Assembly (NCBI RefSeq): GCF_029318635.1
Contig: NZ_CP119676.1
Span: 124,001 to 188,000 of the forward strand
Length of the DNA stretch: 64,000 bases
Direction of reading: 5' to 3'
Origin: Varunaivibrio sulfuroxidans
GTDB lineage: Bacteria; Pseudomonadota; Alphaproteobacteria; Rhodospirillales; Magnetovibrionaceae
Part shown: one piece after another, positions 6,178 through 41,414 of the stretch
How the letters are laid out: every line of letters begins with the position of its first letter
Numbering within the stretch: position 1 is the first letter of the stretch
The notes under the pieces: model-generated
Seen by the model: the letters and a program-made list of their open reading frames with translations, nothing else
What the model was told of the DNA's origin: nothing
The model's database searches: none
Program-made: the position numbers and the translations under genes

Positions 6178-8436
6178 CTAGCGTGTCGTGTTCGCGCGAA
6201 CGCTCCCCAGGGTTTTGAAGACGATCTCAAAAACAAACGCATCTGAAGGTTGAATCTCGCGATCCTGATAATAGGTTCGTTGGACATCGGTTTTGAATAC
6301 GAAACATTCATCTTCATAGGCCAGGGACAACGACGTCGAGCGCATGCCACCGCCCGTTTGCAAGTCGCGAACGCCCGACACGGAGCCACGCCAATAACGA
6401 GACAGCTGCGATTTAATGTTCAAGGAAAGTTCCTTACGCCCGTTGTATTCGCTATCGGCCTGTTTGGGGAAATAAATGTAGTTCGACGAAATATTAAAAG
6501 CCGGCGTGCCGGCGCTTATCCGCACTTCATTGCGGCTGATGGCGTGTGTTTTCTTATCGATGCGGGTGCGGTACAAAAGGTCAACCAGATGTCCGGGTTG
6601 AATGTGCACCCGTCCGACGTAATCGGAAAAGCGGTCGTTGAGACCCGTGCCCGCCGCGAATGTGCTGTCGGCCTTGAGGCGATAGCTTTGCCCAAAAAGA
6701 ACCGATGTGCTGCCGCCGCTGCTGCCGTAAACACCCCATTTTATGCCGTAATTGACCCGCGGCCCGCCCTCGACCCGATCATAGCCTGCGAAGCGATCGT
6801 GACTGAATAGGTTGGTGGTGTCAAATTCCACATCCAGGCTGTCTTCATTTGGAATACTTGAGGGATTTCCGCCGTAAGGCGCGACGACAAAGGATGTGAT
6901 CGGCTCGATCAATTGATAGATATCCCGGTTTTCCTGGCGTACGAAAGGATAACGCCAATCAAACGCCAACTGCGGGTGGAGGCGCGCCTTGTATCCGGTG
7001 AACGTGCTGCCGTCGGTGCGTTTGAGGCCGTTGACGTGATAGAGGTCCCCCTGCACCGTCGCGGAAAGATCGTATATGTCGCCTTTGGGCGCGGTATAGG
7101 GAAGGTGCCATCCACTACGAAAAGAAAAACGTTGATCGTCCGTGCTCTTGGAACGGGTTAGCGCGACCATGCTCAAGTCCAGGGTGTTGTATGCGCCGTA
7201 ACGCGATGGTTCGCTGACGTGGCTGTAGTCGAGCATCGGCGCCACGAGGGGAATGGAGCCCGGCTTGTCATTTGCACGAAGGCTTTGAAAGAGATACGAT
7301 TTAGCGGAAAAATAATTGCGTCCACGAAACCCTTCGGCGAAAATTTTCGAGGTTAGCGTGTTTTGAGTCCCAAGCCCGTAGCGGCGCATATAGGTGTCCT
7401 GGGTCGTGCGTTGAAGATCGGCCCCCCAGCGCCAAGTATTGTCGATATCGAACCGGCCCATGCCGATGACATGACCGTGTGTGATTTTTTTGGAATCCTT
7501 GGTCAGGCTGGCGTCCAGGTTGATTTCGCCTTTGCGGAAACGCTGGCGGTAGTCTCCGGCCAAAACCGGACCTTCCTTCGAGGTGAAGATCGGACGCAAG
7601 GTAACGTCGCTGGACGGTGAAATGGCGTAAAAATAGGGCGTTTCAACCGTCGCGCCCAGATCCGTCGTCCCACCGAAGCGTGGGGGAAGAAGGCCGCTTC
7701 TGCGCTTGACGCTGGGATCGGGGTGGGAAAGATAGGGCGTGTAGGCGATGGGAACGCCGGCAAATTCGACCCAGGCGTCTTTGTATTCCACCGATTGCGC
7801 CTTCTTATCATGAAAGATTTCCATCGCTTTGACCTGCCATAACGGCGGGCGGCTGGGATCTTTTTTACATGCGTTGCATGCGGTGTACACCGCGCGACCG
7901 AGTTTGGTGAAGCGATTCTCGCGCAACGTCGCCGTCCGCGCGGCGAAACGAGATTTGTCTTTCATGACGATGCGCAGATTGTGCACGATGCCGTTCTTCA
8001 GATCGCCGGAGATTTTCATATCTTTGGCGAAAACCACCTCGCCGCTGGGCTCGCGCAAGATGATGTGGCCCTTGGCGCTGAGCAGGTCGTTTTTCTGGTC
8101 GTAAACGATCTTGTCGGCAAGCAGCGTGCGTTGGTCTTGGTTGACCTCGACATGGCCGCTGGCGGTGATGATTCCCTTAGCCTTATCTTGGGACATGGTG
8201 TCGGCGCTGAAGGTGGCGGGGGCGTTTTTATCAATCGGTTTTTGCCCCCATGCCGCCTGTGGAAGCGTCGCCACGGTAAGCGCCGAGGCCAGGAATAACG
8301 CCGGGGCCGATATCCGGAAAAAACGCCACCATCCCGTCGGATACCTTGATGCGGCCCCGCGCGCCGCGCCGCGCGACCAAAATTCGAGGGTGGACATGGA
8401 CCGGGCGGTTGTTTTTGCCTGTGGTGTCGCGGTCAT
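6178..8436 (-). CDS. lptD: LPS-assembly outer-membrane protein LptD
   Basis: A 752-residue outer-membrane beta-barrel that inserts lipopolysaccharide into the outer leaflet. A hydrophobic export segment near residues 44-64 ends in AAWGQ, followed by an OstA-like periplasmic jellyroll domain (SGHVEVNQDQRTLLADKIVYD) and a long strand-rich barrel finishing in FVFEIVFKTLGS. The CxxC pair in YTACNACKKD lies between the jellyroll and the barrel. The N-terminus before the signal segment is long (about 40 residues), so an internal start is possible. The gene is six bases from lptG and precedes surA. Confidence 0.94.
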   Translation of the reverse strand: MTATPQAKTTARSMSTLEFWSRGAARGAASRYPTGWWRFFRISAPALFLASALTVATLPQAAWGQKPIDKNAPATFSADTMSQDKAKGIITASGHVEVNQDQRTLLADKIVYDQKNDLLSAKGHIILREPSGEVVFAKDMKISGDLKNGIVHNLRIVMKDKSRFAARTATLRENRFTKLGRAVYTACNACKKDPSRPPLWQVKAMEIFHDKKAQSVEYKDAWVEFAGVPIAYTPYLSHPDPSVKRRSGLLPPRFGGTTDLGATVETPYFYAISPSSDVTLRPIFTSKEGPVLAGDYRQRFRKGEINLDASLTKDSKKITHGHVIGMGRFDIDNTWRWGADLQRTTQDTYMRRYGLGTQNTLTSKIFAEGFRGRNYFSAKSYLFQSLRANDKPGSIPLVAPMLDYSHVSEPSRYGAYNTLDLSMVALTRSKSTDDQRFSFRSGWHLPYTAPKGDIYDLSATVQGDLYHVNGLKRTDGSTFTGYKARLHPQLAFDWRYPFVRQENRDIYQLIEPITSFVVAPYGGNPSSIPNEDSLDVEFDTTNLFSHDRFAGYDRVEGGPRVNYGIKWGVYGSSGGSTSVLFGQSYRLKADSTFAAGTGLNDRFSDYVGRVHIQPGHLVDLLYRTRIDKKTHAISRNEVRISAGTPAFNISSNYIYFPKQADSEYNGRKELSLNIKSQLSRYWRGSVSGVRDLQTGGGMRSTSLSLAYEDECFVFKTDVQRTYYQDREIQPSDAFVFEIVFKTLGSVRANTTR

Positions 8437-39326: not shown

Positions 39327-41414
39327 TCAGCTTTGGGCGTATTTCATGGTTGACGCCAGGGTGTCGTAGACCGTCTCCCAGGAATCGCGCGCTTCGGGCG
39401 TAAACTGCGCGCCGAGAAAAGTCTCCAAAGTCCACATCAAGGATTCTTTGAAACTTTCATAATCGGCGGCGGAGATGTCGCCTTGGCCGTGTTTGCGACC
39501 TAATTCTTCGATGTCCGGCAACAACGTATCGACCCGGTCGAGATTGGCGACAATACTTTTTAACAACGACAACAGGCGCTGCGCTTGTTGCTGTGGGCCG
39601 AATTTGAACAGGTTCTCCAAATTTGGGTCGATTTCGAACAGGCGCCGGTAAAAACCATCGGCGACCGCATCGAAGTGCTCTTCTAGGAGGGCGAAGCTGG
39701 ATCGCACGGCGTTGATTTGCTCGATGCTGAAGGGACCTCGATTGAGGCTATCGTCTCGCGGAGCTTCGCTCATATCTCCGTCGGCGTCCGGCTGTGCTTT
39801 TCCCGCGACGCCCGGGTGGGCGTCGCGGGAAGGATGTGTGACGTCGGGTGGAGCTTGCGGCGATTCGGGTTGGCCGTCGGAAGGTGAGGGGTGAGGAAAG
39901 ACCCCGGAAGGCGCTTCGCGTTTCTTGCCGTCGTCATTGCGGCGCAGTTCGAACAAAAAAGCATCGACTTCACTTTTCAGACGCACGGATTGCTCCGACA
40001 GCGCGCTGGCCCGTTCGAGAACCTGATCCGCGGCGTTGCCGGACTCCTCGGACGTGGCGCCGACCGCGGCGATATGATCAGTGACGCTTTGGCTTGTTTT
40101 TCTTTGCTCATCAATGGCCTCGGCGAGAGTGGCTCCGATTTCATTGAGTTCGCGAATGGTTCCTCCAATCCCCTCGATGGCTTCGACCGCCTCATGGGTG
40201 GCGCTTTGAATGCCTCCAATTTGGGCGCTGATTTCCTCGGTCGCCTTGGCGGTTTGGGTCGCGAGATTCTTGACCTCCGAAGCGACGACCGCGAACCCTT
40301 TCCCGGCTTCTCCGGCGCGCGCCGCCTCGATGGTGGCGTTCAGGGCCAAGAGATTGGTTTGCGATGCGATGTCGTTGATTAAATTAACGACGTCACCGAT
40401 TTTTTTTGCCGCTTCGGCCAAGCCTTGAATCATCGTGTTGGAATGGTTGGCGTTTTCAACGGCTTGCGCCGTCAATTCCGTCGATCGCGTGACGTGTCGG
40501 GAAATTTCCTGAACCGAGGCGCTCAAATGCTGCGCCGCCTCTTCGACGCTTGAGGCTTGGCCTTGGGCCTCTTCGACCGTGTCGGCCATCGATATCGCGG
40601 TCGCCTGCAACGTTTCCGACGCATCGCCGACCTCGTTGACGACCGTGCCGATGTTTTGTTCGAAGGAATGCGCTTGCTCGACCCGCTTCGTAATCACGCT
40701 CCACGTCAGCATGGCCCCGGTGTAGACGCCGGCGTCGTCAAAGAAAGCGGAGACGCGGAGATCCAATGTCTCTTCGCCGAGCGTGATCGTCGCATGATGT
40801 GGTAGGTTCGCGGGATCGCTTAGGATGGCGCGCTGGTGGGATGGGTTTTTATGGAAAATATCAATGCATTGGCCGACAATATTCTCGGCCTTGCAAGGGA
40901 GTAGGTGTTCCAAGTCGCGCAGCGTCTCGATGCTGGTGGCGTTGGCGTAGGTGATGGCGAAGGTTGCGATGTCGATCGCCATGACGTTGATCGGCATCTG
41001 TTCGAGCATCCGCTGCAAGGGAGGGGGGGCGACATCCTCTGCGCCCGGCGTGTCGGTGTGCGCCCACGTCATCATGGGGGCGATATAGCGCCCGGCGTCG
41101 TCGCGCAGTGCGCTGAAAACGAGGTTCAGGCATTTTTCGCCGAGGGTGACGCGGACCTGTTGGGGAAGTTGCGCTTCTCCGCCCCCGCGGATGCGTCGAA
41201 TTTCCTGAATATCGCCGAGAAAATCGATGGACCGTCCGATCATTTTATCGGGTTTTTCGGGAAAGAGGTGTTGCAACCCCTCGAACGTGCGCCGACCGGC
41301 TTCGTTCATGTAACGGATGCACAAATCACGGGGATCGAGAACCATGACGCCGACCGGCATGTGTCCGATCATGGACTCGAAGTGCTTCGTCTTTAAAAGG
41401 CGGGAGCGCAGCAT
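39327..41414 (-). CDS. Cytoplasmic PAS-PAS chemoreceptor with C-terminal globin domain
   Basis: 695 residues with no membrane span. Two PAS-like domains (about 15-125 and 135-255; [20 protein letters not shown] and [20 protein letters not shown]), a methyl-accepting signalling domain with hairpin tip [18 protein letters not shown] (near 360-380), a Pro/Asp-rich linker (about 505-560), then a globin of 133 residues. The globin has FYRRLFE (Tyr at B10), ENLFKFG, and His642 in GRKHGQ as proximal ligand, as in Vitreoscilla haemoglobin. Known globin-coupled sensors put the globin first. The ATG at 41414 has AAGGAAGG upstream. Likely senses oxygen, NO or redox state; role in taxis is inferred. Confidence 0.9.

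Follow-up and report, generated by a model that had tools for sequence, protein, structure and literature searches.

The window, the 64,000 nucleotides of the Varunaivibrio sulfuroxidans genome analysed here, encodes a chemoreceptor of 695 amino acids that carries a globin of the flavohaemoglobin/HGb lineage at its C-terminus, behind two PAS domains and the MCP signalling hairpin. We infer haem binding, localisation at the chemosensory array and buffering, and read the globin as a gas-binding module tethered at the array, at a probability, set by judgement, of about 45%. The features of the window are as follows.

39327..41414, minus strand: gene of the PAS-PAS-MCP-globin receptor, 695 aa (open frame and Pfam domains)
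41040..41393, minus strand: PAS1, residues ~8-125, FHK haem-histidine motif lost (PAS_8 match; relatives keep the motif)
40680..41027, minus strand: PAS2, residues ~130-245, putative Aer2-type haem PAS with His188 and Trp238 (matches to 6ceq, 4hi4 and 3vol)
39915..40679, minus strand: MCP signalling hairpin, residues ~246-500 (PF00015, E 6e-32)
39918..39929, minus strand: counterpart of the relatives' A9 joint, GGC AAG AAA CGC, in frame and with no long A run (sequence comparison)
39735..39914, minus strand: Pro-rich linker, residues ~501-560 (composition; low-confidence model with no helix there)
39330..39734, minus strand: C-terminal globin, residues ~561-695, flavohaemoglobin/HGb lineage (PF00042, PDB matches, pocket residues)

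The open frame can also be read from 41447 instead of 41414, which gives 11 residues more. The Pfam order is PAS (PAS_8, residues 11-45, E 2.6e-7), MCP signalling domain (residues 327-470, E 6e-32) and globin (PF00042, residues 588-690 of 695, E 8e-16, scoring 59 bits with the cut-off at 22); PAS2 is missed by Pfam and matches the solved Aer2 haem-PAS structures, with the motif IDxFHKNPxHQR. The order of two PAS domains, hairpin, linker and C-terminal globin on a chemoreceptor, proposed in an earlier note on this DNA, is thus borne out, as is its acidic and Pro-rich linker, which holds 12 prolines in 60 residues and is mildly acidic (10 D/E against 4 K/R). The linker has no helix in a low-confidence AlphaFold2 model; run without an alignment, the program gave poor models, with pLDDT of 57 and 45. 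No HAMP domain was detected in the receptor by the Pfam scan, and PAS1 had no match among solved structures. The FHK haem motif is lost in PAS1 of the window and kept in both PAS domains of the related genomes G049, G017, G029 and G009. The motif histidine of PAS2 we take to be the residue equivalent to Aer2 H234. That residue is given as the haem ligand of Pseudomonas aeruginosa Aer2 in a 2026 aerotaxis review (PMC13401364). The fusion of receptor and globin is no artefact of assembly: the genome of V. sulfuroxidans is a single contig of 3.07 Mb, and the same domain order, across a frame change, stands in the corresponding neighbourhood of G049 and G017. The V. sulfuroxidans genome also encodes CheW-domain genes and several further MCPs. 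By its signalling hairpin and the CheW-type genes of its host the protein qualifies as a chemoreceptor; it is probably a soluble receptor of the aerotaxis type, predicted to sense O2. A free globin made from either of the two internal ATGs scanned (codons 582 and 586) was considered and rejected: both sit inside the globin and show weak SD pairing. A further methionine, Met548, lies in the linker.

The closest PDB entries to the globin are HGbRL (3wfw, E 2e-19), the Hell's Gate globins 3s1i and 3ubc, and Vitreoscilla haemoglobin; in NCBIfam the model that fits it best describes the globin portion of the NO-inducible flavohaemoprotein. The protoglobin/sensor-globin profile PF11563 found no match in the receptor (Pfam). 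The view of the earlier note that this domain looks more like a bacterial haemoglobin than a sensor globin therefore holds, and the alignment confirms the proximal His642 as the F8 histidine and identifies the B10-like tyrosine as Tyr589. The alignment also places PheCD1 at 603, GlnE7 at 610, LeuE11 at 614 and TyrG5 at 652, all kept, and PF00042 together with TyrB10, PheCD1, GlnE7 and HisF8 assigns the domain to the flavohaemoglobin lineage; it is predicted to bind haem. Foldseek with the globin model also ranked HGbRL first, but at TM 0.25 and rmsd 16, so that this rank is driven by sequence and is no test of the fold. The protein stops after the globin and has no FAD/NAD reductase domain, so it is not a flavohaemoglobin. 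Glu(H23) is a residue with a role in flavohaemoglobins, and the receptor chain seems to end before it. In the tree the globin has an end branch of 1.26 against a median of 0.2, which indicates fast evolution. A second globin of the same genome (L102 6272-6820; C1:1430391-1430795) stands alone, is 40% identical to the receptor globin, and has no array genes seen close by.

In the globin-coupled sensor (GCS) family the sensor globin is N-terminal, according to the review (PMC13401364). The window receptor shares a signalling output with this family, but its globin lies at the other end and belongs to the flavohaemoglobin/HGb lineage instead of that of PF11563, so the receptor is not a GCS. Like the HemAT/GCS aerotaxis receptors it unites a globin and an MCP signalling domain within a single soluble chain; unlike them it carries the globin C-terminally, after two PAS domains. 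It resembles Aer2 in the haem histidine motif of PAS2 and in the MCP output, and differs in having a globin, no detected HAMP and a PAS1 with its motif lost. DcrH of Desulfovibrio vulgaris is a precedent for an MCP that ends in an O2-binding domain (PMC9388753), although that domain is a hemerythrin (non-haem diiron) and DcrH is a membrane receptor with a periplasmic domain and HAMP. The nearest solved globins, HGbRL and HGbI of Methylacidiphilum, belong to the same group and have TyrB10 and GlnE7, but in HGbRL the globin lies N-terminal to a Roadblock/LC7 domain and HGbI is a single-domain protein, with a very high O2 affinity (PMC4476040). By domain content the window protein is a variant of the haem-based aerotaxis receptors, outside the GCS family. 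The passages of the review that were searched deal with sensors whose globin is N-terminal, with Aer2 and with DcrH, where the C-terminal domain is the hemerythrin; no C-terminal globin was seen in them (PMC13401364). Neither a C-terminal globin on a chemoreceptor nor a recoded chemoreceptor was found in the open-access literature. A search of genome contigs returned only PAS-PAS-MCPs of Ancylobacter and Prosthecomicrobium, whose match stops at residue 487-499, short of the globin, and a plasmid search returned globins alone, none labelled as a chemoreceptor.

The neighbours of the receptor gene (permease, hda, SDR, a gene of 125 aa, ppk and ppx) are partly common to G009, G017, G049 and G065. 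At this shared neighbourhood the window has an in-frame fusion of receptor and globin, G009 a PAS-PAS-MCP with no globin and G065 a globin-PAS-MCP with the globin N-terminal; in G017 and G049 the globin comes after the PAS-PAS-MCP and lies in the -1 frame. G029, on a short contig, joins its PAS-PAS-MCP in frame to a globin of the truncated type (PF01152, E 2e-21). By path in the tree the receptors closest to that of the window are those of G029, G049 and G060, and that of G009 is further. The C-terminal extension may have arisen once and then been lost or swapped in places; the trees did not demonstrate one origin. None of the 26 further PAS-PAS-MCP ends read in the class sample (L204-L232) carries a C-terminal globin, so the full-length form is rare.

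The joints of three relatives hold a run of nine As. In G049 the joint reads GAC TCC TCA AAA AAA AAG TAG and in G017 GAC TCA AAA AAA AAG TAA, and in both the -1 frame leads on, by way of a Pro/Ala linker, to the globin. In G029 the joint is in frame (AAT TCT AAA AAA AAA GTA ACT) and the loss of one A yields the same SKKK-stop, the mirror of the other two layouts. The dnaX sites are A_AAA_AAG in Escherichia coli and slippage at nine As or Ts in Thermus; both layouts have been reviewed, and a single base change can exchange their roles (PMC5009743). Frameshifting of ~40% was measured for a cassette of nine As (PMC3711429). As in dnaX, the runs of G049 and G017 end in A_AAA_AAG with the stop directly after and the C-terminal domain in the other frame; unlike dnaX, the joint would add a globin to a chemoreceptor, and the site is absent from the window gene. 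Up to position 7280, which is itself inside the globin, the -1 frame of G049 lacks ATG, GTG and TTG codons. That of G017 has a TTG (1635) and an ATG (1656) near the globin start, with no good SD ahead as judged by eye. The two globins are 68% identical and their codon differences number 35, 29 and 68 at positions 1, 2 and 3, which shows coding constraint: the -1 frame must have been translated, under selection. In G017 GAGGAGGTG precedes the run, with a duplex of -13.0 kcal/mol, the strongest among 74 receptor ends; its GGAGG ends 9 nt before A_AAA_AAG, and no start codon stands at a spacing that it could serve. In G049 a strong hairpin (60-nt fold, z -2.7) begins ~26 nt past the run, further than usual. 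Of the two stimulators expected at a dnaX-type site, an upstream SD and a downstream stem-loop, a strong SD-like stretch is thus seen only in G017 and a strong hairpin only in G049. No A or T run of at least eight was found near the stop at the other receptor ends read, 46 in the order set (6 of them MCPs of the window genome) and 26 in the class set. In the 654 kb of compared sequence there are seven A or T runs of nine and none longer, and 3 of the 7 lie at a receptor-globin joint. G049 accordingly has the core dnaX-type signs (slippery run, stop next to it, conserved coding downstream with no start of its own), and G017 has them qualified by an internal TAG in its globin and by the in-frame TTG and ATG near the domain start. 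It is strongly suggested that the A9 site of G049 and G017 gives two products, a receptor with and one without globin, by dnaX-type recoding; in the window the fusion is fixed. An alternative that is unlikely but substantial is that errors of sequencing or assembly, phase variation of the tracts or a recent break of the frame account for the joints. All three genomes are drafts of 180-660 contigs, homopolymers are prone to indels, and the TAG in the G017 globin fits such a reading, but equal run length and frame in two genera, the coding constraint on the -1 frame, the stop immediately after the run, the SD-like stretch and hairpin, and the mirror-image joint of G029 all speak against it.

A search with the window globin gave matches at E 1e-3 in 53 out of 317 genomes of the order. 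About 37 places in the order set scored better than 1e-15, at least 20 of them fused to chemosensory proteins. The arrangements seen are as follows.

N-terminal globin on PAS-MCP receptors: L072, L075, L078-L081, L083, L088, L093
C-terminal globin on the receptor: window, G049, G017
One or two globins on an MCP-tip fragment, order set: L085, L092, L096, L105
MCP-tip fragments with globin(s), class sample: L175, L177, L178, L180, L181, L191, L196, L200
CheA with globin between Hpt and dimerisation domain (P1-P3 linker): L074, L076, L077
CheA with globin inside the CheW/P5 domain: L070 5481-9224; L086 383-3457, minus strand

The joints of the globin in these array proteins are mostly Pro/Ala-rich. 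In G065 the globins of the receptor and of CheA are 81% identical, the next best being 66%. The carriers appear to share presence at the array and not geometry. The tip-globin proteins are small, consist only of an MCP tip of ~70-100 residues and one or two globins, and are widespread in the class sample. Three further proteins were noted in passing. At L098 5760-5960 (G043) a PAS-MCP has its N-terminal truncated globin interrupted where the frame changes at an A8 run; at L083 (~6446, minus strand) the frames of globin and PAS-MCP are split by one in-frame TAA with an ATG immediately after it, where L078 has Q; and the protein of L073 5762-7480 unites two globins, one of PF00042 and a truncated one of PF01152, with a beta-lactamase fold domain of ODP type.

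In the mechanism proposed, PAS2 would bind haem as in Aer2 and, by analogy with the family, drive the MCP hairpin, while the globin would hang on a flexible tether of ~60 residues. The globin would then be a gas-binding module held at the array and not a rigid sensor pushing on the hairpin, and it may alter the O2 (or NO) seen by the array or set the range of its response. The tethered module is favoured over a rigidly coupled sensor since the carriers share the array and not geometry, and most joints look flexible. It is further supported by the full globin pocket and the Aer2-type PAS2, by the spread of globins over receptor N- and C-termini, MCP tips, the CheA P1-P3 linker and CheW/P5, by the close likeness of the G065 receptor and CheA globins, and by the A9 joints of three genomes with their mirror layout. 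Counting against it, every copy of the window receptor has the globin, which fits a sensor equally; the globin could have taken over sensing from PAS1, whose haem motif is lost; the globin is fast evolving, and some relatives (G009) have none. An unlikely but substantial alternative makes the globin a second, direct sensor of gas, replacing the lost PAS1 haem site through ligand-driven docking on, or release from, the hairpin, PAS or CheA. The loss of the PAS1 motif, confined to the window within the close set examined, the complete haem pocket and the DcrH precedent (PMC9388753) fit it, but the linker is long and looks disordered, and carriers and positions are too varied for one common allosteric route. 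Quite improbable is the suggestion of the earlier note that the globin acts as an NO dioxygenase or NO scavenger protecting the haem-PAS receptor: the lineage and the TyrB10/GlnE7/LeuE11 pocket are of flavohaemoglobin type, and the globin domain by itself could react with NO, but the reductase is absent and the chain seems to stop before Glu(H23). A decaying passenger with no function, to which the long branch, the nonsense codon of the G017 globin and the globin-free G009 would point, is very improbable, as the frame is intact and the tested pocket residues are all kept at ~47% identity. NO turnover and decay are both less likely than a tethered module or a sensor.

The tethered module may extend beyond the window. 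Across this alphaproteobacterial order, a globin of the flavohaemoglobin lineage would be a general array accessory, moved among receptor termini, MCP tips and two CheA sites, and some species would set its dose on the receptor by programmed A9 recoding, giving a fixed mix with and without haemoglobin; we hold this at slightly less than even odds. Known globin chemoreceptors carry N-terminal sensor globins, and the globin of the window is of another lineage and sits at the other end. If the proposal is true, the A9 joints would give chemoreceptors their first case of dnaX-type recoding within the open-access literature searched. Haemoglobins of another lineage would have been recruited repeatedly to chemosensory arrays, and, since the globin positions do not suggest one common allosteric route, what the globin does at the array would become the question.
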